The translations under genes were made by a program, and so were the position numbers. The notes beneath the pieces were generated by a model. That model was given only the letters and a program-made list of their open reading frames with translations, searched no databases and had not been told where the DNA came from. Positions 24,820-38,259 of a stretch of DNA of 46,364 nucleotides are shown piece by piece. Within the stretch, counting starts at the first letter, position 1, and every line of letters starts with the position of its first letter. The DNA is taken from NCBI GenBank assembly GCA_026996295.1, contig JALWLL010000053.1:1-46364 (forward strand), read 5' to 3'. Source of the DNA: Sulfurimonas sp. (GTDB lineage Bacteria > Campylobacterota > Campylobacteria > Campylobacterales > Sulfurimonadaceae).

Positions 24820-25875
24820 CTACATGGTGTATAAGATATATTCTATTTGTTCTAGAAGTTCTTTGTTGCTTAGCTTATTTGCCGAGGCGTAGCTAAGCGC
24901 GCCACCGGCTCCAACACCCTCTTTGGCTTCCCCCTCATCATATTTGTGTAAAACAGCGATAGAGGCTTCAGCAAAAGAAAAAGGGCAATAAAGAGCGTGA
25001 GGTGTATAACTTAAAAGTGAGAGAATATGGGCAATATTTGAGTTGTTGTCATGAGCGACCCAGCCTGTTGTAGCGAGTGTTATATTGTCATGTTTGACCC
25101 GCATAAGCAGATCTTCTTTCAGTTTGTCGGCGATTAAAAGAACAGCCGCCATCTGTGTGCCACCTGCTAAAACAACATGAAATCTTTTAGAGGCTTCAAG
25201 CAAAAAGCCGGCACAAAACACAAGCATATTATCACTGACGATAGAGAGCTTCTCAAAGGTAGTTGCATCTTCATGAATGAGTGCAAGTGCCTTGTTGATG
25301 GTTGTGTTTTTAATATCTTGAGGCACATGCAAGAAGCTTGATGAAAAATCATCTCTACAATCATACCCGAGTGCCAAAGCGCTTGCAGTTGCAGTTGTTG
25401 TACCTGCGGGTGTGCTCTCCCCAAGGATAAGGTAGGAGCCTTTGAGCTCATAGTTTCTTCCAAAGTGCATCCCTTTTTCAAAGATAGATTTGGCATCTAT
25501 GGAAGCCCCCTTGTCTATCGACTCAGAAGGGGTGATGTCAAAGTTGTGCAGCACGCAGTTCTTGGGTGTTTGCTCAAGTCCGAGGTTTAAAATTTCTATA
25601 CTTGCAAAAGGGTGCAGGTTATGTACGGCTCTTGTGATGATTGCCGGAGTAGGTACCCCTTTTGGTGTTTCGGCGAGTTCAGTGAGTGAAAACACCTTCT
25701 CGTTTGTTATAAATTCAGCATCTAGCGTAGGTGTCAGGGGTATCATCCCGGGGATACCTGCTTGGGTGATCCCCTCTATCTCGCAGGTTTTGCTTACAGA
25801 AGCAGCGAGAAGAAAGTCGGCTTTTGCTTTTGGAAGTGAGTCTTGTGTGTTTGTAAAAATGTTATAGCTTTGCAT
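24820..25875 (-). CDS. cobT: nicotinate-nucleotide phosphoribosyltransferase, CobT-type
   Basis: 351 residues from the ATG at 25875 (MQSYNIFTN); a longer frame that runs into the upstream gene is rejected. The protein matches the TIGR00303-type CobT family: ITQAGIPGMIPLTPTLDAEF, the loop LGESTPAGTTTATASALALG and VLAGGTQMAAVLLIAD. It activates the lower-ligand base by transferring phosphoribose from nicotinate mononucleotide, making the alpha-ribotide for cobamide assembly. Its start overlaps the glycerophosphodiesterase gene by 14 nt, so they are coupled. It lies about 2 kb from the main cobalamin block and shares its strand. Confidence 0.85.
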   Translation of the reverse strand: MQSYNIFTNTQDSLPKAKADFLLAASVSKTCEIEGITQAGIPGMIPLTPTLDAEFITNEKVFSLTELAETPKGVPTPAIITRAVHNLHPFASIEILNLGLEQTPKNCVLHNFDITPSESIDKGASIDAKSIFEKGMHFGRNYELKGSYLILGESTPAGTTTATASALALGYDCRDDFSSSFLHVPQDIKNTTINKALALIHEDATTFEKLSIVSDNMLVFCAGFLLEASKRFHVVLAGGTQMAAVLLIADKLKEDLLMRVKHDNITLATTGWVAHDNNSNIAHILSLLSYTPHALYCPFSFAEASIAVLHKYDEGEAKEGVGAGGALSYASANKLSNKELLEQIEYILYTM

Positions 25876-26641
25876 CGTCGTATCTTTTTGATGCCATTTT
25901 ATCCAAATCATCTGTAAAAATTCCATTAACTCCCATGCTAAAAAGCTCTTTGGCTTCATTTGGATCATTGAGCGTGTAGATATTGATAAAAAAACCACGC
26001 TCTCTTAAGTGTTTGATCTTTGTTTCACATACAAGCTTTTTGTTGAAGTGGTAAGCATCAACTTTGAGCTTTTTTAAATAGTGCACAAGGTTGTGTGGGT
26101 GTTTGTTCTCCACAAGCGCGGCAGTTGGAAGTGGCTTGCACAGTTTTAGGTATTGATGTCTGAATGAGGAGATAAGCAGTTGCTGATGGGTATCTGTTTC
26201 GTGGATCTCCCGCATAAGGGTTTGAATAACCTGTGTATCTTCAAATGTGTTGTGCATATCTTTGATCTCAAGGTTAAGAAAAAGCTTGTTTTGTTTGATA
26301 AATCTCAGGGCTTGATGGAGCGTTAAAAGAGGTTCAGGCACCCCCTTAAACCAAGTTCCATAGTCGAGTTTTTCGAGCTCTTTGAGGGTAAAGTCACATA
26401 CTCTAAAAGGCTTTTTATGTGCAAACTCCTTGAGCTTGGTAACATTAGTGGTTCTCTCAAGCGTTGCATCGTGCATAATGATGGCGATACCATCTTTGCT
26501 CAGTTGTGTATCGATCTCTATAAAGTTACATCTGTTTTTTGCACCCTCAAGAGCACTGAGGGTATTTTCGGCAAAATGTACCCTGTCGCCTCTGTGTGCA
26601 CCGATAAGTGATTGTTTTTCAAAAAGATCTAAAAAGTTCAT
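25862..26641 (-). CDS. ugpQ: glycerophosphodiester phosphodiesterase
   Basis: A 259-residue cytosolic GDPD-family TIM barrel. Catalytic and metal residues are visible: HRGDRVHFAENT at 16-27, FIEIDTQLSKDG with the Glu and Asp ligands, and MHDATLERTT with the second His. LNLEIKD and VNGIFTDDLD close the barrel. It hydrolyses glycerophosphodiesters from phospholipid turnover to glycerol 3-phosphate and an alcohol. It has no signal peptide. No ribosome-binding site precedes the ATG at 26641, so the transcript may be nearly leaderless. The coupling to cobT has no obvious metabolic reason. Confidence 0.9.
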   Translation of the reverse strand: MNFLDLFEKQSLIGAHRGDRVHFAENTLSALEGAKNRCNFIEIDTQLSKDGIAIIMHDATLERTTNVTKLKEFAHKKPFRVCDFTLKELEKLDYGTWFKGVPEPLLTLHQALRFIKQNKLFLNLEIKDMHNTFEDTQVIQTLMREIHETDTHQQLLISSFRHQYLKLCKPLPTAALVENKHPHNLVHYLKKLKVDAYHFNKKLVCETKIKHLRERGFFINIYTLNDPNEAKELFSMGVNGIFTDDLDKMASKRYDDAKL

Positions 26642-29182: not shown

Positions 29183-30094
29183 TTATGATACCCAAAGAGT
29201 TAAGAAGAGATAAACTGTGCCAAAAATTGCTATAACAGCGGTATCGATTTTATATCTAAGTGTTAAAGCCTTGTGCAAGTCGCTCGCCGTGATGATCTTA
29301 CCTCCAGTGCCAAAATAGGGTTTTTTCTTGATACTTCCAAAGTAGGAGGTGTCACCACCGAGTGCGACACCAAGAAAGAGTGCCATGGCAGTGATGGGGT
29401 GTCCTGCATTTGGGCTTTCATGTTTTTGTCCATCTTTGTAAAAGGCAAAGGGTTTTTGTTGTTGTGTGAGTAACATTATCAAAACAGCTGTTATGCGTGA
29501 TGGTATGAAGTTAGCCACATCATCAAGCTTTGCGGCAACTTTTCCAAACTTCTCATAGCGCATATTTTTGTATCCGAGCATAGAGTCCATAGTGTTGATG
29601 GTTTTGTAGATAATGATACCGGGAAGAGAAAAAAGCAGCAGATAAAAAAGCGGTGCGATAACACCATCGCTTAGATTTTCTGCATAGGTCTCAATAGCGG
29701 CTTTATAGATATCGCTCTCCTCCATCGTTGCAACATCTCTACTGACGAGTTGAGCAAGGGCTGTTTTTTTATCTTGGGTAGAGAGTAGCTCCAAAACACT
29801 ATCGTAGAGCATCTTATGAGCTAAAAACATAGCGCTTATGAATGAGCTGCAGAGTATGTAAAGGGTATAGGGTAACGCTGTAAGCAAGGCCTCAAGCAAA
29901 AAGCTTATGCTAGTGACAACAGCTAACACAAACATAACAAGTAACAAACCATTCAAAACAGTGTTGTTATAGAGTTTTTTCTCTGCAAAAGAGATAAGCT
30001 CCCCTATGATGATAATGGGATGTTTGATAAAACGAAATTCACCAAAGATTTTGTCAATGATGTAAGCTAAAAGGGCAATAAGCAAATTACTCAT
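29183..30094 (-). CDS. cbiB: adenosylcobinamide-phosphate synthase CbiB
   Basis: A 303-residue membrane protein of the CbiB/CobD amide-synthase family, close to the usual length. LIALLAYIIDKIFGEF with HPIIIIGELISFAEKKLYN at the start, ETYAENLSDGVIAPLFYLLL in the middle and SPNAGHPITAMALFLGVALG are family motifs. It joins cobyric acid to (R)-1-aminopropan-2-ol phosphate or ethanolamine phosphate with ATP. The aminoalcohol phosphate comes from the decarboxylase encoded two genes upstream. It overlaps the cobQ stop by 8 nt. Confidence 0.93.
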   Translation of the reverse strand: MSNLLIALLAYIIDKIFGEFRFIKHPIIIIGELISFAEKKLYNNTVLNGLLLVMFVLAVVTSISFLLEALLTALPYTLYILCSSFISAMFLAHKMLYDSVLELLSTQDKKTALAQLVSRDVATMEESDIYKAAIETYAENLSDGVIAPLFYLLLFSLPGIIIYKTINTMDSMLGYKNMRYEKFGKVAAKLDDVANFIPSRITAVLIMLLTQQQKPFAFYKDGQKHESPNAGHPITAMALFLGVALGGDTSYFGSIKKKPYFGTGGKIITASDLHKALTLRYKIDTAVIAIFGTVYLFLTLWVS

Positions 30095-31472
30095 GCAACA
30101 TTTTCTCTATATGATCCATATCTATATGCTTATCTATATGCATAGCAAATGTTTCTATCGCTTTTGCTTTGTAGGTTTGAAAAGAGTAGCCTTTGTAGTT
30201 TGGGTTTATGGAGCTAAAGAGTTTGTAGCGAAACGCATCACTCTCAAAGAGGGCATGGACAAAGGTTCCATAAAGATTTTTTTTCTTTTTTGCTCTTTTT
30301 GTTGCAACGGCGTTATGTATCTCATACCCATCGACAATAGTGCCAAAGAGGTTATAGGTGCCTTTTTTGAGAATCTTTTCTTTTTGAAATGTAACAGACC
30401 CTTTAAAACGCCCAAATCCCTGTACCTCTTTTTCATCAGATTCTATCATGAGGGGGTCAAAAATCTTCTCAAACATCATCTCATAACCGCCGCAAATAGC
30501 GACAATAACCTTCTCTTTTGAACTCAGAAGTGACTCAAAACCTCGCTCTTTTAACCATGCAAGATCATCCACAACCCTTTTGCTCCCAGGCACAACAACA
30601 ACATCGCACAGACTTGCTTCACTGAGTGAACTTACAAAAGTAAGCTCCACTTGTGCATCTGCAACAAGGGGCTCAAAGTCGGTAAAGTTTGAGATATGGG
30701 GTAATCTCACAACACCCACTTTGATGATGGCATCTGTTGTATCTTGCCTGTAGTTCATAAGGGATTGAGCATCTTCAAAGCCGAGGTTAAAAGGGCAAAA
30801 CGGTACAACACCGAGCACTTTGATGCCAAAACGCTCCTGTATGATCTTGACCCCCTCATCAAAGAGTGTCATATCCCCTTGAAACTTGTTGATGATAACC
30901 CCTATGAGATTTTTGCGAAGTTTTTTTGGAAGTAGTTTATACACACCGTATATGGAAGCAAAGACTCCGCCTTTTTGTATGTCGGCTACAAGTATGATTT
31001 TGGTGTTGAACTCATCGGCTATGAAAATATTGGAGAGGTCTTTTTGCATCAGATTCAGCTCAACCGGGCTTCCAGCACCCTCGGCAACTATGCACTCATA
31101 TGTTTTTCGTAATGTTTCAAAGGCCTCTTTTGCAAAAGGTTTGAGTGTATCGATATCTCGGTAATAGCTCCATACATCTTTGTTGCCGATATTTTTACCG
31201 TTGATAATGATATGCGCGCAGGAGTTGCCTCCCGATTTGAGAAGTACGGGGTTCATAGATACCGAGGTTTTCACCCCGATGGACTCTGCTGCAAAGTGTT
31301 GGGGGATCGCTATCTCGCCGCCGTCATCACTGACCTGAGAGTTGTTTGAGACATTTTGTGCTTTAAAAGGGGCAACTTTGATACCGCGATGGTGAAGGAG
31401 GTAGGTGATGGCAAAAGCAAGCGTTGATTTGCCGGCATCACTACTTGTTCCAAAAATACTAAGTGAATGCAT
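30087..31472 (-). CDS. cobQ: cobyric acid synthase CobQ
   Basis: 461 residues from the ATG at 31472; the open frame reaches 31664 but those residues would lie inside cobD and have no family match. The N-terminal synthetase domain shows SIFGTSSDAGKSTLAFAITY and APFKAQNVSNNSQVSDDGGE. The C-terminal glutamine amidotransferase domain shows VVVPGSKRVVDDL, the nucleophile Cys in VAICGGYEMM and the catalytic His in GTFVHALFE. It amidates adenosylcobyrinic acid diamide side chains to cobyric acid. It starts 14 nt inside the upstream cobD and overlaps cbiB downstream, so the three are coupled. Confidence 0.94.
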   Translation of the reverse strand: MHSLSIFGTSSDAGKSTLAFAITYLLHHRGIKVAPFKAQNVSNNSQVSDDGGEIAIPQHFAAESIGVKTSVSMNPVLLKSGGNSCAHIIINGKNIGNKDVWSYYRDIDTLKPFAKEAFETLRKTYECIVAEGAGSPVELNLMQKDLSNIFIADEFNTKIILVADIQKGGVFASIYGVYKLLPKKLRKNLIGVIINKFQGDMTLFDEGVKIIQERFGIKVLGVVPFCPFNLGFEDAQSLMNYRQDTTDAIIKVGVVRLPHISNFTDFEPLVADAQVELTFVSSLSEASLCDVVVVPGSKRVVDDLAWLKERGFESLLSSKEKVIVAICGGYEMMFEKIFDPLMIESDEKEVQGFGRFKGSVTFQKEKILKKGTYNLFGTIVDGYEIHNAVATKRAKKKKNLYGTFVHALFESDAFRYKLFSSINPNYKGYSFQTYKAKAIETFAMHIDKHIDMDHIEKMLHE

Positions 31473-32457
31473 GGAGCGCCTTTTGAAGTTTTTTATGTGC
31501 CTTTGTATCTTTGAGTGCAAAGCGAATATGCTTATGCGTAAGAAAATCAAAGCTTGTACAAACTCTCGTGAGTATTTTGTTGTTATAGAGATATTTATGA
31601 AGCTTTTTGGCATGTTTGGAGTGGGTGAGAAAAAAGTTGGCATCACTCGCATAAATGGTGTCAAATACGTTGGAGTCTTCTAAGATACGATAGAGTTCCT
31701 GTTTTCTCTTTTGGTGTATTTTTCTGCTTTTTTTTATAAACTCTGCATCGCTGAGCCTTTTTTGTAAAAATACGGCATCAAAAGAGGAGATACTCCATAG
31801 CGGAGCGTGAAGTTTTTGCACACTTTTTGTGTTGGTAAACACTGCACCTATGCGTACGCCCGCACAGCTGTAAAATTTTGAAAATGACTGCACTATAAAG
31901 AGCTTTTCATACTCTGCGATTCTGAAGCGTTGAGAGGGAAGAGCTTCAAACTCTAAAAAAGATTCATCAAGAATGATGGTGCAGTTTTGCTCCTGCCACA
32001 TAGCAAAAAGTTTATCGAGCTTATAAAACTTTCCCTCCGGGGTTGAGGGGTTGACAAAAACAACGATGGAGTTTTTTTTGACTCGCTTGTCTATGTTGCT
32101 CAAGCGATTTATCTTGAAAATGTTTTTGTTGTATTTTTTGGCAGCTTTTTCATACTCACCATAGAGTGGAGCATAGAGATAGACACGTTTTTCTTCCAAG
32201 CTCTCAAAGAGCTTGAAAATGGCGGTGGTAGCACCACTGTGAAGCGAGATCTGTGTAGGTTTGAGTGCGTAAGATTTTGCGATGGTTTTTTTGAGTTCTG
32301 TGTAGTTTGCATCGGCATAGGGAATGAGCATCGCATTTGTCGGGGTTATGTCTGTTTTTGGATGGTAGCAGTTGATGTTTGAGGAGAAATCTATGATCTG
32401 CTCAGGTAGGCAGCGAAGTTTTTTTGCTGCCTTGTAGATATTGCCGCCGTGTTTCAT
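31459..32457 (-). CDS. cobD: threonine-phosphate decarboxylase (CobD), PLP-dependent
   Basis: A 332-residue fold-type I aminotransferase-like enzyme. MKHGGNIYKAAKKL, then IIDFSSNINC, then NPSTPEG (136-142), then LDESF and the PLP lysine K194 in QSFSKFYSCAGVRIG identify the CobD family. It decarboxylates L-threonine 3-phosphate to aminopropanol phosphate, or L-serine phosphate to ethanolamine phosphate when a norcobamide is made; the choice cannot be read by eye. Its ATG overlaps the stop of a small upstream gene (ATGA). The substrate requires an amino-acid kinase, and no PduX-type kinase is seen here. Confidence 0.9.
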   Translation of the reverse strand: MKHGGNIYKAAKKLRCLPEQIIDFSSNINCYHPKTDITPTNAMLIPYADANYTELKKTIAKSYALKPTQISLHSGATTAIFKLFESLEEKRVYLYAPLYGEYEKAAKKYNKNIFKINRLSNIDKRVKKNSIVVFVNPSTPEGKFYKLDKLFAMWQEQNCTIILDESFLEFEALPSQRFRIAEYEKLFIVQSFSKFYSCAGVRIGAVFTNTKSVQKLHAPLWSISSFDAVFLQKRLSDAEFIKKSRKIHQKRKQELYRILEDSNVFDTIYASDANFFLTHSKHAKKLHKYLYNNKILTRVCTSFDFLTHKHIRFALKDTKAHKKLQKALHAFT

Positions 32458-32660
32458 ATATCGACATCATCCCAAAACTCGTTGAAGTCGAGGTTTGTCA
32501 TAGCGTTTTCATCTTCAAGGTTTTTCTCTAAAAGCTTTTTTTGCTCCTTCTCAAAATACTCCTCAAGCGCCTCGTTGATGATGGTGCTTGGATCTTTTTT
32601 GAGAAGTTCACTAAAGGTTTGCAGGTTTTGCATGTTGTATTGATCTATTGTTATTTGCAT
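32454..32660 (-). CDS. small acidic protein in the cobalamin operon, ribbon-helix-helix-like
   Basis: A 68-residue protein. The N-terminal strand MQITIDQYNMQNLQTF and the helix LLKKDPSTIINEALEEYFEK look like a ribbon-helix-helix fold (strand, then a helix with a polar turn), followed by a very acidic Asp/Glu tail (ENLED region, then FNEFWDDVDI). It could be a small DNA-binding regulator or an antitoxin-like protein, but no toxin gene is next to it. It is coupled to cobD by an ATGA overlap and lies 12 nt after the kinase gene. The function is unassigned. Confidence 0.65.
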   Translation of the reverse strand: MQITIDQYNMQNLQTFSELLKKDPSTIINEALEEYFEKEQKKLLEKNLEDENAMTNLDFNEFWDDVDI

Positions 32661-32672
32661 AGGGGATTTTAC

Positions 32673-33458
32673 CTAAATTTTACTAAGAAGCTCTTTGGCT
32701 CGTTTGGTATTTTTGTAGTGCTGTATCCGCAAAAGCGCGTAAAGATGTGCCGCTTTTTGCATACTGTGAAGCAGCTCCCCTTTGCTTAGTTTTTTAACAG
32801 CTCTTTGGTTGTATGTTTTGAGAAAAAGGTTGAGAAAACAGGGTGTGTGTTTGTTCGCATCAAAGGCTGTAAGTGCCACCGCCGCATCAAATACAAAAGC
32901 GCCGCTTCCACCATCGATAAAATCAAAAACAGCGATTTGCTCACCATGAAAAAGGGTGTTGTCTTTAAAGATATCTCCGTGAATAAAACCATCGTTTACA
33001 AGTTTGTAACCCTTGAGGTGTTGCAGTTTTTTGTAGTAAAAAAAATGATGCCTTTTGCAATAGTGTAACATATCATCGATACTGTAGTTCTCAAGAAAGT
33101 GTGTTTCACAAACCATGCGGTGGCTGAGGGCATGAAACTTTGAGAGAAACCTTGCAAGAGCCTGAATATGGTAGGTTTGTATGGTGTGTGGCTCTGAACC
33201 TGTGAGCTTCTCATAGAGGTGCCATTGCCTGTTTGAGGAGAGATGTCTGGGAACACGCAGCCCTTGTTTGTGAAAGAGCTTGAGACGTTGTGCATCGTGT
33301 GTAACATTACACTCTCTTTCATACTTTTTAAGAACATAATGCTCGGTGATGTAGGTTGTATCAACAACCCCTGATGTTGTAGGGGTAAGGGTGTTGATAG
33401 CAAAATCGGGAAAAAGTTTTTGTACCTCTTTGAGATCTATAGATGTTTTGACACCCAT
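32673..33458 (-). CDS. APH/choline-kinase-fold phosphotransferase, candidate L-threonine/L-serine kinase
   Basis: 261 residues from the ATG at 33458, which overlaps the upstream stop as TAATG; an in-frame ATG at 33491 lies deep inside the previous gene. The aminoglycoside-phosphotransferase fold is clear: K44 region YVLKKYE, Brenner motif FIHGDIFKDN (158-167) with catalytic Asp162, and the metal-binding VFDFIDGGSG. HSMQKAAHLYALLRIQHY closes the C-terminus. The fold phosphorylates small hydroxyl compounds. Encoded immediately before the CobD decarboxylase, it is a good candidate for the kinase that makes L-threonine phosphate in place of PduX. That role is inference from context; homoserine-kinase-like activity is the main alternative. 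Confidence 0.82.
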   Translation of the reverse strand: MGVKTSIDLKEVQKLFPDFAINTLTPTTSGVVDTTYITEHYVLKKYERECNVTHDAQRLKLFHKQGLRVPRHLSSNRQWHLYEKLTGSEPHTIQTYHIQALARFLSKFHALSHRMVCETHFLENYSIDDMLHYCKRHHFFYYKKLQHLKGYKLVNDGFIHGDIFKDNTLFHGEQIAVFDFIDGGSGAFVFDAAVALTAFDANKHTPCFLNLFLKTYNQRAVKKLSKGELLHSMQKAAHLYALLRIQHYKNTKRAKELLSKI

Positions 33459-33883
33459 TAAAGAGGACACTTTTTCATAATTTGGCTCCACTCAAACTCA
33501 AAATGTTTGCGTACATACTCTCGTGTGTGTGGTACTTGACATAGTGAGCAGTCTTGATGGATCTTGTTTGCGTACACTCCTGCTCTGCCGTCTTTCGAGT
33601 CGATGGCACAAAAACTGTACTTGGTTTTGCCTTGTATCTGCTCAATACCCTCATCGTTAAACCTAAAGTTTGGACAGGCACAAAGGTAGCAGTTGAGAGA
33701 GCTCATCTCATGACATTTTTGGTTTTTGGCATAAAGCGGGCAGAACTCAGGCTCTTTTTGCACCATGTTCTCAAAGTCAAAATACTCGATAACAGCCTCT
33801 TTGCCATAACCCTCTTTGAGAAGTTTTTTTACTATTGTTTGATGTTTGTTTGCATGTGTTTGAAACCATGAAGCATAACCCAT
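33458..33883 (-). CDS. cysteine-rich metal-binding protein (zf-like, PF04071 type)
   Basis: A 141-residue cytosolic protein with eleven cysteines. The cluster CPLYAKNQKCHEMSSLNC, continuing as YLCACPNFRF, resembles the Cys-rich small domain PF04071 that occurs in archaeal cobalamin proteins; two further pairs follow (KYSFCAID and QDCSLCQVPH). The cysteines could hold zinc or an iron-sulfur cluster. Its stop overlaps the kinase start (TAATG) and it lies 10 nt after btuC. From memory, a methanogen CobD that carries a Cys-rich region is reported as a bifunctional threonine kinase/decarboxylase. Here the equivalent parts may be separate genes. Confidence 0.75.
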   Translation of the reverse strand: MGYASWFQTHANKHQTIVKKLLKEGYGKEAVIEYFDFENMVQKEPEFCPLYAKNQKCHEMSSLNCYLCACPNFRFNDEGIEQIQGKTKYSFCAIDSKDGRAGVYANKIHQDCSLCQVPHTREYVRKHFEFEWSQIMKKCPL

Positions 33884-33893
33884 ACAGCCTCCC

Positions 33894-34859
33894 TTACTTT
33901 TTGTTTCTGCTGATAATAAGATAGATAAAAAACGGACCGCCTATAAATGCAGTCACTATCCCTATGGGAAGCTCACTTTGGGTATCGAGTACACGGGTGA
34001 GCGTGTCACAGGCTATAAGAAAAAGCCCGCCAAAAAGTGCCGTTTTGAGTATGCGCTTGTCCACACTGCTTGGGTAGAGCTTGGATACCATATGGGGGAT
34101 GATCAGCCCCACAAAGCCTATGGGACCGCTTATGCTTACAAGTGTACCGATGGCAAATGATGAGACGATGAGTAAAAAGAGGGTAAGTCTTTTTGTATGA
34201 ACCCCTTTAAGAGACGCGCTCTCATCAGAGATGCTCAGAAGCTGCAGTTCAAACCTAAAAAGGTAGATGCTCAGGATCAAAATGAGTGTGACCACTACAA
34301 GTACCAAGGGGTAAAACCACCCAATAACTGAGAGAGAACCCATAGTAAAGCGTATGAGCATATCGTTTTGGAGTGTATCTCCGAGGTAAAACAGCACCAT
34401 CAGTGCAGCGGAGTAAAAGAGTGAGAGGGCAATCCCTAAAAGTAACAGTGACTCTTGTTGTGAATTGCGTAAAAAGCGTGCAAGATACACAAGCAAAAAA
34501 ACAGTGAACATAGCACCCAAAAACCCAAAGATACTCATAGCCCCAAGACCAAAAAACAAGCTTGTAAGACCAAGCTTTATGGCTATCCCCGCCCCTAAAA
34601 CTGCACCGCTTGAGATCCCAAGCGTGTAGGGTGTCATAAGAGCATTTCTAAAAAGTGTCTGAAATAAAAGACCACTGAGAGCTAAAATGGCACCCGCTAA
34701 AAAGGCAAATGTGACGCGGGGAAGTCGAAGCTCAAAAAATATGCTTGAGCTGAGCGAATCAAAATGCAAAAGCTCGTTGATATTTATGGAAGCAGCACCC
34801 ACAAAGGGAGAGAGAAGCGCAATAGATACAAGAGTAAACCAGATAACAAACCTACTCAT
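33894..34859 (-). CDS. btuC: cobalamin-type ABC transporter permease (FecCD family)
   Basis: 321 residues from the ATG at 34859 (MSRFVIWFTLV), with about 9-10 membrane helices; the upstream extension of the frame overlaps the ATPase gene and is not supported. Family motifs include ELRLPRVTFAFLAGAILALS, then LMTPYTLGISSGAVLGAG, and GPIGFVGLIIPHMV. It forms the membrane channel for an iron-siderophore or cobalamin importer; its setting with TonB receptor, binding protein, ATPase and cobalamin synthesis genes favours corrinoids. The start overlaps the end of the ATPase gene by 8 nt. Confidence 0.88.
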   Translation of the reverse strand: MSRFVIWFTLVSIALLSPFVGAASININELLHFDSLSSSIFFELRLPRVTFAFLAGAILALSGLLFQTLFRNALMTPYTLGISSGAVLGAGIAIKLGLTSLFFGLGAMSIFGFLGAMFTVFLLVYLARFLRNSQQESLLLLGIALSLFYSAALMVLFYLGDTLQNDMLIRFTMGSLSVIGWFYPLVLVVVTLILILSIYLFRFELQLLSISDESASLKGVHTKRLTLFLLIVSSFAIGTLVSISGPIGFVGLIIPHMVSKLYPSSVDKRILKTALFGGLFLIACDTLTRVLDTQSELPIGIVTAFIGGPFFIYLIISRNKK

Positions 34860-35577
34860 ACTTGACCGCCAGATTGTCAAACTCAACCCCATAGAGCTTA
34901 TGAAGTACACTGTTTTGAAAAAAATTGTTTTTGTAAAAATCTGCTTTGGCGTCTTTGAAAAAAAGTACAGCAGAGTTGACAAATGCAGCAAGGTGCAGAT
35001 CATGCGTTATCAGTATGACCTGATGCGATCTTTGCAGTGCTTTGATGTGTTGTGCTATCACCCGAGAGTTGTAAGGATCAAGGTTCGCTGTAGGCTCATC
35101 AAGTATGATGATATCACTCTCTTGAGAAAGAGCACTTGCTATAAGTGCGAGTTGTTGCTCTCCTGAGCTTAAAGAGTGCAGGGTGTGGTTTTTTAGATGC
35201 TCAATATTGAGAAGTCGTAGATATTTCAGTGCGATCTGCCGATCTTGGTGTGTGTATTCAAAAAAACTTTTTTTGTAAGCAAATCTACCTAGAAGTACAA
35301 ACTCAAACAACTCTATGTAAGGATCGTAAACTTCCAGTTTTGCAGGTATATAAGAGATCAGTTTTGCTCTTTGTTTGTGTGAAATCTCTTTTATGTCATG
35401 GGAGTTAAGGTGTATGCTTCCTTGAAACTCTACAAGGTTGCAGAGTGATTTTGCAAAGGTGCTTTTACCCGAACCGTTTGCTCCAAGTATGCTCAAATGA
35501 GAGTCTATACGTAAAGAGATGTTCTCAAGAACACTTGTTCCATCAAAACGGCAACTCAGAGAATCGATCTCAATCAT
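34852..35577 (-). CDS. btuD: cobalamin-type ABC transporter ATPase
   Basis: About 241 residues. Walker A is GANGSGKST, the signature motif is LSSGEQQLALIASAL and Walker B is IIILDEPTANLD, followed by the switch His in LITHDLHLAA. It powers the FecCD-family importer encoded just downstream. The ATG at 35577 is preferred over an in-frame GTG at 35580; either way the start lies inside the end of the binding-protein gene. Assignment to corrinoids rather than iron rests on context. Confidence 0.88.
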   Translation of the reverse strand: MIEIDSLSCRFDGTSVLENISLRIDSHLSILGANGSGKSTFAKSLCNLVEFQGSIHLNSHDIKEISHKQRAKLISYIPAKLEVYDPYIELFEFVLLGRFAYKKSFFEYTHQDRQIALKYLRLLNIEHLKNHTLHSLSSGEQQLALIASALSQESDIIILDEPTANLDPYNSRVIAQHIKALQRSHQVILITHDLHLAAFVNSAVLFFKDAKADFYKNNFFQNSVLHKLYGVEFDNLAVKYE

Positions 35578-36400
35578 CACTCATCTCTTGAGAGAGTCTT
35601 TGTATGGTAAGGGCTATTCTGTGTGAAGGGATATGGATATACTCCTCATCAACGATACTGATCTTTTTGTTTTTTGAAGCGTTTATGGGCAGCGCATACC
35701 AGCTTTGAAGCGCTTTTTTGATATCGGTGTTTGGATGGCTTTTTTTTGAATGGAGTATGATCACCTGATCAGGATTGAGTGCTATGATATTTTCATAACT
35801 TAAAACAGGCTGTTGTGTGTTGTCGCTTGTGTAAGCGTTTGTGTTGCCACTCAGTTTAATGATCTCATCAAAAAAGATGTTGTTACCTGCGATATATGTT
35901 CTGCTTCTGAGATCATCTCTGAGTCCGTACACAATCATAACGCTATGGGGTGTTTTTGTTTTTTTTATAGAGTCTATTGCAGTTGTTATGTTATGGAGGA
36001 GCTGTTGCTCTTTTGATTCTTGTGCGTTGAGAGCACTTGAAATTTTTTGTATAGAGTTTTGGATATCTCGGATGCTTTGAAGACGTACCATAAGTGTTTT
36101 GATATGAAATTTTTTTAGTTTTTGAAGTGTCCGAAAGTTAAATGTCTGTCCAATGACCAAAGTGGGGGAGAGTGCTAAGATCTTTTCTATATTTGGCTGT
36201 GTGTAACCCCCTATAACCGGAAGTTTGAGTGCCTCTTTTGGATAAAGGGAGTAAGAACTTGTTCCAACAAGCGTATCCCCCTTTTCAAGTGCAAAAACGA
36301 TCTCTGTTATGGAGGGACTCAGGGAGACAACCCTCTCTTGAGCCACAGCACCGAGGCTTAGTACAAAAAGGAGAATGAATGAAAAGATTTTTGTACCCAC
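35570..36400 (-). CDS. btuF: periplasmic cobalamin-type binding protein
   Basis: A 276-residue exported protein of the FecB/BtuF family. GTG at 36400 lies 8 nt after AAAGG and opens a signal peptide (KIFSFILLFVLSLGAVAQ). The mature part begins RVVSLSPSITEIVFALEKGD, then VGTSSYSLYPKEALKLPVIG, GGYTQPNIEKILALSPTLVI and a long backbone helix. It should deliver a corrinoid from the outer-membrane receptor to the BtuCD importer. It lies 26 nt behind the receptor gene and overlaps btuD. Confidence 0.86.
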   Translation of the reverse strand: MGTKIFSFILLFVLSLGAVAQERVVSLSPSITEIVFALEKGDTLVGTSSYSLYPKEALKLPVIGGYTQPNIEKILALSPTLVIGQTFNFRTLQKLKKFHIKTLMVRLQSIRDIQNSIQKISSALNAQESKEQQLLHNITTAIDSIKKTKTPHSVMIVYGLRDDLRSRTYIAGNNIFFDEIIKLSGNTNAYTSDNTQQPVLSYENIIALNPDQVIILHSKKSHPNTDIKKALQSWYALPINASKNKKISIVDEEYIHIPSHRIALTIQRLSQEMSDD

Positions 36401-36426: not shown

Positions 36427-38259
36427 TTAAAATTTAGCTTTGATTCCTACATAACCACTTCTAGGAGCTGTAGCATAGCCGTCTATTACCTGATAGTATC
36501 TGTTTGTGATATTGTCAAGTTTTGCATATACCTGAAATTGTTTGTTCACATCATAGTTTATAACACCGTTAGCTACAAGGTACTCACCTGTTTGTGCTCC
36601 CTGATTATCTGCTGAGTCGTATCTTTTACCGATATACTGGGCACTAAGAGCAAAGTGAACTTTTTCAAAACCATAATAATCAACACTTACATTGAGTGTA
36701 GAGAGTGCACGTCTTGCCAGTGCTATGCCATTGTTGTCCTCAGCTTTTAGAAGGCGGGTGTAGTTTGCACTTACAAGTGTGTCTTGAAGGAGTTCATCGC
36801 TGTACTCAAGCTCATAACCGTTGATAGTTGAGGTGCCACTAAGGTTATTGTACTTTCCTGCAATAGGTCCACTCCATCCATCAGGGTCATAGTAGTCGAT
36901 CATATCTTTGATATCACTGTTAAAGTAAGTGACCTTCCATGCTTTGTAGCCTACTGAGATATCATAAGAGAGAGTGCTCTCCGGAGTAAGATCTTTATTT
37001 CCGTATGTTGGATCATAAAGGTTGTAGAGTGTCGGTACATTGTAAGCGGTACCGATATTTGCTGTTGCATAAAGCCCTTTGAACTTAGAAGCGATATGTT
37101 TGATACCGATTTTGCCTGTTAGTTTGTTATCAAACTCATCGTAGGTATCATATCGAAGTGATTGTGTAAATATTGTTTTTCCACCGATGAGACCTTCAAA
37201 GCTGTTGGAGTTTGTCAAAAATCCTGCTGTATTGTTATAACGCTCATTAAGATCATTTTTATGCTTAAACACTTTATGATCAATACCCCATACCAAAAAG
37301 TCTTCCTCTGCGTAAGATATTTTAGATTTGAGACCATACTCACGTACTGTTCCGTCATACTCTCCATAAGCGTACTCTCTTGAGAACACAGAGTGCTTGG
37401 TATATATGTCAAGTTCGTTGAAGCTGTCTATGTGATGGAAGTTGATCTTGCTGAACGTATCGCGTGTAGTGCTTAAAGCATTACCATCCGGATCACCATA
37501 GGTGTCATAGTGATTTGTAGCATCGATAAGGGTGTGTTCGATATCTATTGTGTTTGTATCGTTGAAGTTGAAGCCCGCTTTGATCGTGGAGGTGGTGTTG
37601 ACATAACCATCTGTTTCATAGTTGTCTATATCTTCTCCCCTTGGGGCTTGTGCTGTAAAACCATCTGTTGTAAGCTTTGAAGAAGCAAGATCAATATAAT
37701 AGTTATCCGCTTTATAAGAGGCTCTTGCACCATATTTTCTTGTTTTAAAACTTCCAACTTCCAAGTGTGCAGAAGCGTGAAGCCCTTTTTGGGCACTTTT
37801 AGTGATGATGTTGATCACACCCGCACTTGCATCTGCGCCCCATACACCCGACTGAGCACCTTTAATCACCTCGATCTGCTCAATATCATTGATCATCAAA
37901 TGCTCAAATGGGGCACCGTTGAGACCTGTTATATCGTTATAACGGATACCGTCTATAAGTACAAGTACACGTTTTGAGTTCATCCCTCTTACATAAACAG
38001 AAGTGCTCTTACCAAGCCCACCGTTACTTGTAACGTTAATACCCGGGAGTGTGTTGAGCGCTTCTGTAACGGTGGTGTATTTTTTTTCCTCTATCTCTGC
38101 TGCTGTTATGATGTTGACATCAGCAGTGACATCTTGAAGCGGTTGAGAAGTTTTAGAAGCACTGTAAACAGTGACAGGAGCCAGCTCTAGTGCATCAGCG
38201 GCATTGAGTGAAGTGAGTAAAACACCACAGAGAAGTGAAAGTTTTATTGTTTGTTGCAT
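36427..38259 (-). CDS. btuB: TonB-dependent outer-membrane receptor, BtuB-like
   Basis: A 610-residue receptor, close to E. coli BtuB length. A signal peptide (about 1-20) leads to a TonB-box-like strand APVTVYSASKT, then the plug domain: DVNIITAAEIEEKKYTTVTE, LNTLPGINVT, SVYVRGMNSKRVLVLIDGIR, EVIKGAQSGVWGADASAGVI. A 22-strand-type barrel follows and ends in GYVGIKAKF with terminal Phe. It should import corrinoids across the outer membrane with energy from TonB-ExbBD, which are not in this window. It heads a minus-strand run of ten or eleven genes. Cobalamin specificity is inferred from its neighbours. Confidence 0.88.
   Translation of the reverse strand: MQQTIKLSLLCGVLLTSLNAADALELAPVTVYSASKTSQPLQDVTADVNIITAAEIEEKKYTTVTEALNTLPGINVTSNGGLGKSTSVYVRGMNSKRVLVLIDGIRYNDITGLNGAPFEHLMINDIEQIEVIKGAQSGVWGADASAGVINIITKSAQKGLHASAHLEVGSFKTRKYGARASYKADNYYIDLASSKLTTDGFTAQAPRGEDIDNYETDGYVNTTSTIKAGFNFNDTNTIDIEHTLIDATNHYDTYGDPDGNALSTTRDTFSKINFHHIDSFNELDIYTKHSVFSREYAYGEYDGTVREYGLKSKISYAEEDFLVWGIDHKVFKHKNDLNERYNNTAGFLTNSNSFEGLIGGKTIFTQSLRYDTYDEFDNKLTGKIGIKHIASKFKGLYATANIGTAYNVPTLYNLYDPTYGNKDLTPESTLSYDISVGYKAWKVTYFNSDIKDMIDYYDPDGWSGPIAGKYNNLSGTSTINGYELEYSDELLQDTLVSANYTRLLKAEDNNGIALARRALSTLNVSVDYYGFEKVHFALSAQYIGKRYDSADNQGAQTGEYLVANGVINYDVNKQFQVYAKLDNITNRYYQVIDGYATAPRSGYVGIKAKF

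Follow-up and report, generated by a model that had tools for sequence, protein, structure and literature searches.

A candidate L-threonine kinase of the APH fold beside CobD in Sulfurimonas and other Campylobacterota

The cobalamin locus on contig JALWLL010000053.1 of Sulfurimonas sp., a sulfur-oxidizing marine bacterium (assembly GCA_026996295.1; positions 1 to 46,364, the whole of which is referred to here as the window) encodes an APH-fold small-molecule kinase of 261 amino acids (32673..33458, minus strand), a candidate L-threonine (or L-serine) kinase. It is probably an L-threonine kinase that feeds CobD and replaces PduX in Campylobacterota, and would have arisen inside the lineage of APH-type homoserine kinases (ThrB2). 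In the proposed reaction a small hydroxy-amino acid, L-threonine being the likeliest, would receive the gamma-phosphate of ATP on its side-chain hydroxyl, which in that case yields L-threonine-O-3-phosphate. CobD (31459..32457, minus strand; 332 amino acids), of the pyridoxal phosphate (PLP)-dependent L-threonine-O-3-phosphate decarboxylase family, would decarboxylate this product to (R)-1-amino-2-propanol O-2-phosphate, which CbiB would join to adenosylcobyric acid. The best reading is thus of a credible candidate for the pduX gap, backed by comparative genomics and structure, for which L-threonine is a likelier substrate than L-serine. An earlier note on this DNA had proposed a non-orthologous replacement of PduX; the proposal is supported by co-occurrence with CobD, by the cobamide loci, by distinctness from homoserine kinases and by the absence of PduX, with the substrate and the reaction inferred.

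The kinase is a member of the APH superfamily, matching PF01636 with 53.5 bits (E=3.8e-14) against a curated cut-off of 23.2. Its motif HGDxxxDN...DF is intact, and H160, D162, D166, N167 and D179 are invariant across 15 homologues, in agreement with its earlier description as an APH-fold kinase with an intact Brenner motif. The best NCBIfam match is NF003558, the APH-type homoserine kinase family (ThrB2), which all 15 of the aligned homologues also match; the score of 61.8 bits is below the cut-off of 271. The AlphaFold model has a predicted local distance difference test (pLDDT) score of 90, and the nearest solved structure is 2PPQ, the homoserine kinase of Agrobacterium, whether by sequence, by Foldseek (E=1.7e-12) or by VIA-align (Z 22.9 and root-mean-square deviation 2.7 with 253 aligned; next best Z 20.0). 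Within the APH fold the protein therefore groups with the homoserine kinases, yet it fails that family's own test.

A single family-pattern scan of species genomes returned the Campylobacterota loci, with proteobacterial ThrB2 below them. In a tree of 95 rows the Campylobacterota kinases form a clade sister to proteobacterial ThrB2, the split being supported at 100/100; the nearest named relatives of the window's kinase in this tree point to a Sulfurimonas-like member of the Campylobacterota as its source. Residues were compared between 29 proteobacterial ThrB2 rows and 66 Campylobacterota rows. Both groups possess H160, D162, D166, N167, D179, Y216, R244 and H109, whereas the ThrB2-conserved positions N33, N197, R220, E225, R239 and W241, the first four of which are 100% conserved in the ThrB2 rows, are altered in the Campylobacterota rows. 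Judged from the alignment, loss of these residues with retention of the catalytic core fits a changed substrate. The nearest curated family and structure would suggest a second homoserine kinase, and a subgroup of 12 rows in the tree, in which three copies from genomes without CobD are found, may include true homoserine kinases. For the kinase itself such a role is extremely improbable, because its score is far below the NF003558 cut-off, its clade is separate, the conserved ThrB2 residues are lost and the genome already possesses a ThrB of the GHMP family (279 bits, above cut-off); the linkage of its loci to cob genes points the same way. The kinase on one contig of the set, titled Desulfosporosinus, does not differ from the one in the Campylobacterota genome G323 (loci L093 and L305), and the record is probably mislabelled.

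The distribution of the kinase follows that of CobD. Among 397 genomes of the class, for which thresholds were chosen after score gaps were seen, 57 have strong CobD matches. Of these, 42 also encode the kinase, as does 1 of the 340 others; the counts ignore shared ancestry. The count of co-occurrence proposed in the earlier note thus favours its reading of the kinase. Within the window's genus alone, the kinase is found in 13 of 14 genomes with CobD and in none of 18 without it, and the pattern recurs inside several genera in which some members have CobD and others do not. Since the kinase is almost never encountered without CobD, it probably makes the missing substrate of CobD.

The gene neighbourhoods are in keeping with this distribution. 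Removal of duplicates from 67 kinase loci left 62 distinct loci, 52 of which carry cob or btu genes, directly adjacent in 46; such genes are absent from all 29 proteobacterial ThrB2 loci used as controls. A family found mostly outside cobalamin loci, which the earlier note had named as fatal to its proposal, is thus not what was observed. The commonest direct neighbour is CobD (27 of the 67 loci, duplicates included), and in Sulfurimonas the kinase mostly adjoins cobD. Unlinked copies comprise four in genomes with CobD elsewhere and the three in genomes without CobD.

A role in salvage, as a kinase of cobinamide, aminopropanol or ethanolamine, may also be considered, as choline and ethanolamine kinases share the fold by structure comparison and btu uptake genes adjoin the kinase. 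This role is very unlikely: CobU, the cobinamide kinase/guanylyltransferase (PF02283), is already present in 30 of the 67 kinase loci, and an enzyme acting on aminopropanol would circumvent CobD, almost always the companion of the kinase.

PduX was not recognized in the window's genome, where IspE and ThrB, each scoring above its curated cut-off, are the only GHMP kinases that were found; the absence of PduX claimed earlier for this locus thus extends to the genome, BluE not having been searched for. PduX was likewise not identified in 16 CobD genomes of a first sample or in the 15 CobD genomes that lack the kinase, the matches not all being classified singly. GHMP kinases across these genomes are nearly always two in number, with a third in three genomes. 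The extra copies in two genomes of the first sample (G010 and G122) are 336-338 amino acids long, and that of G010 is HddA-like by its N-terminus.

Several observations weigh against the assignment as an L-threonine kinase for CobD, besides the neglect of shared ancestry in the counts. Fifteen genomes with CobD have no kinase. In one of them, from the window's own genus (G009), the kinase gene is gone from between the Cys-rich and ribbon-helix-helix (RHH)-like open reading frames (ORFs) of an otherwise intact locus; the other fourteen belong mostly to one family (f7), the kinase rows of which group with Arcobacteraceae contigs in the 95-row tree. CobD therefore works without the kinase in some lineages. 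PduX elsewhere in these fifteen genomes was considered as a substitute and rejected, as PF00288 gives two GHMP kinases in each and three in G219, judged by size and number. No alternative kinase was found beside CobD among the neighbours examined at kinase-less loci, which were CobS, CobU, MarC-like and transglutaminase-like genes; the last two are conserved around cobU, cobT and cobD at L275, L277, L278 and similar loci. Finally, 22 of 37 kinase loci have BluB close by, as against none of the CobD loci of 13 kinase-less genomes, which keeps alive the idea of an enzyme of lower-ligand synthesis, for instance one that phosphorylates alpha-ribazole and has BluB and CobT for its functional neighbours. 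The kinase stands directly beside BluB in 20 loci (e.g. L057, L303, L305-L308) and beside CobT in 12. This role is nevertheless quite improbable, given that the Sulfurimonas kinase is mostly beside cobD, that 15 of the 37 kinase loci and the entire 46-kb window contain no BluB, that alpha-ribazole phosphate is made by CobT without any kinase, and that the closest relatives of the kinase act on homoserine.

The choice between L-threonine and L-serine bears on the type of cobamide that is made. An L-serine kinase would supply L-serine phosphate, from which CobD would form ethanolamine phosphate and the organism norcobamides. Fold and chemistry would suit this reaction equally, and members of this class are known to make norcobamides (PMC4585668, PMC7755780). 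One Sulfurospirillum-type genome (G056) has its cob genes clustered in the order given for Sulfurospirillum multivorans in PMC7755780 and has no kinase homologue; its CobD is nearly identical by score to 6OUX, the S. multivorans enzyme SmCobD (878.7 bits, full length). CobD of this type reportedly works in the making of norcobamides (PMC4585668, PMC7755780), SmCobD acting in the synthesis of norpseudo-B12 probably via ethanolamine phosphate (PMC4585668). The CobD of the window is closer by phmmer to Salmonella enterica CobD 1LC5 (77.3 bits) than to SmCobD 6OUX (61.4 bits). Serine synthesis already passes through L-serine phosphate, which makes a dedicated kinase for its supply unnecessary. With a SmCobD-type genome that has no such kinase, an L-serine kinase is an unlikely alternative here. 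In one consistent story, the kinase-bearing genomes would use L-threonine phosphate and make cobalamin, and the kinase-less genomes would use L-serine phosphate; the distribution of BluB fits such a split between cobalamin and norcobamides.

The window CobD scores 221.8 bits against TIGR01140 (E=1.2e-65), below the equivalog cut-off of 290.55. This cut-off is exceeded in none of 200 sampled genomes, and CobD scores still separate from those of the HisC paralogues. In Arcobacteraceae-like genomes a second, divergent CobD-like paralogue is encoded beside the Cys-rich gene (L297, 9848-10783, minus strand; L298; L304); a Glu aligned at the position of the PLP-binding lysine suggests that it is catalytically dead. 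Another gene, in G103 (L384, 9463-10638, plus strand), is SmCobD-like by its N-terminus and located outside any cob cluster.

The Cys-rich protein encoded upstream of the kinase (33458..33883, minus strand; 141 amino acids) contains nine cysteines, not the eleven counted earlier, and eight of the nine are invariant in 11 homologues. It matches the zf-like family PF04071 with 17.2 bits (E=0.0049), under the cut-off of 27, and the matches of all 11 homologues are weak as well (best E 1.1e-4), so that by profile comparison it is likely a distant relative of that family. Its AlphaFold model is poor (pLDDT 68), and a sequence search turned up no relative of solved structure. The family occurs in 129 of the 397 genomes: 74 lack CobD, and the remaining 55 are among the 57 that have it. 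In CobD-less relatives of Sulfurimonas the gene is often beside btuC or other B12 uptake genes (BtuBCDF), and kinase-less cob loci retain it, usually beside cbiB. This distribution speaks against a dedicated partner of the kinase or CobD and runs counter to the earlier suggestion that the protein aids the kinase or the decarboxylase. Its family reaches well beyond the genomes with CobD or the kinase, and the protein belongs to corrinoid loci in general and tracks corrinoid handling broadly. Like the RHH-like ORF, it is to be counted as a neighbour of the candidate kinase rather than as a partner.

The gene order on the minus strand of the window is btuB-btuF-btuD-btuC, Cys-rich ORF, kinase, RHH-like ORF, cobD, cobQ and cbiB, with an archaeal-type cobT farther along, near the operon; the cobalamin operon setting recognized earlier is thus confirmed. 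BtuB-like TonB-dependent receptor (36427..38259) and BtuF-like periplasmic corrinoid-binding protein (35570..36400) are named from ORF and operon position, and the BtuD-like ABC ATPase (34852..35580) from sequence and position beside BtuC and BtuF. The BtuC-like B12 transporter permease (33894..34904) matches FecCD PF01032 (E=2.9e-78). CobQ/CbiP cobyric acid synthase (30087..31472) scores 453 bits against NF001989 (cut-off 273), CbiB (29183..30094), which joins the CobD product to cobyric acid, matches PF03186 (E=1.1e-85) and TIGR00380 above its cut-off, and the archaeal-type CobT phosphoribosyltransferase (24820..25998) scores 342.7 bits against NF003372 (cut-off 306); all of these genes are on the minus strand. 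No B12 riboswitch was matched by an Rfam search of the window.

Within 31459-33883, which spans the Cys-rich, kinase and CobD genes, the coupling by overlaps described earlier stands in part. The TAATG junction (33460-33456) does join the Cys-rich ORF to the kinase, whereas the ATGA overlap belongs to CobD and the 68-amino-acid RHH-like ORF (32454..32660, minus strand; RHH_3 E=0.12, below cut-off), which begins 12 nucleotides past the kinase stop and separates the kinase from CobD. The cobQ gene overlaps the end of cobD by 14 nucleotides. The RHH-like ORF is kept in several Sulfurimonas cob loci (e.g. L054, L056, L070, L073, L081) and probably takes no part in the enzymatic reaction. A Tat-signal metallophosphoesterase gene (PF00149) is also found in several Sulfurimonas cob loci (L053, 11176-12030, minus strand; L054; L060).

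A kinase family filling the pduX gap in a widespread phylum would make this step predictable and assayable, and through it the linker type may become readable from genomes. Genome surveys of cobamide makers omit pduX and cobD from their prediction rules, as most verified producers are without them (PMC6461909). It is possible, though somewhat doubtful, that different, non-homologous homoserine kinase families each yielded a cobamide L-threonine kinase (the GHMP family PduX, the TIGR02535 type the proposed CbiU, and the APH type the present kinase), and that presence or absence of the kinase, with BluB, predicts cobalamin with an aminopropanol linker as opposed to norcobamides from L-serine phosphate.

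Among known systems, ThrB2 (NF003558, 2PPQ) is the best match in sequence and structure and shares with the kinase its fold, catalytic motif and likely class of amino-acid substrate; the kinase differs in its score under the NF003558 cut-off, its lost ThrB2 residues, its cob-locus context and its separate clade. PduX, the L-threonine kinase of Salmonella, corresponds in proposed reaction and pathway position but is a GHMP-family enzyme, not one of the APH fold. Methanosarcina mazei MM2060 solves the same missing-kinase problem in another way, its CobD being accompanied by a Cys-rich region; here the APH kinase is separate and CobD has no C-terminal Cys-rich extension. Precedents for non-orthologous replacement of PduX exist in BluE, MM2060 and the proposed CbiU (PMC4285132). 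BluE of Rhodobacterales, with demonstrated L-threonine kinase activity (PMC6249242), resembles the kinase in the reaction proposed for the latter, and MM2060 is a bifunctional kinase/decarboxylase CobD according to a title cited in PMC6461909 and PMC9986279. CbiU of Dehalobacter (Dehre_1608), a homoserine-kinase-family protein in a cob operon, was proposed as a PduX replacement (PMC4285132) and is likewise a proposal; it belongs to a different family (TIGR02535, annotated as phosphoglycerate mutase-like or archaeal-type homoserine kinase). A literature search of incomplete coverage returned no cobamide threonine kinase of the APH type. The cluster of S. multivorans, from the same class, resembles the present locus in encoding SmCobD (SMUL_1544) and a Cys-rich PF04071 protein (SMUL_1548; PMC7755780 Table A5). 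The PF04071 protein of the S. multivorans-type cluster is a genuine member of that family, and the profile of the window's Cys-rich family does not match this protein significantly (E=0.26); the S. multivorans cluster differs further in having no kinase and in yielding a norcobamide.

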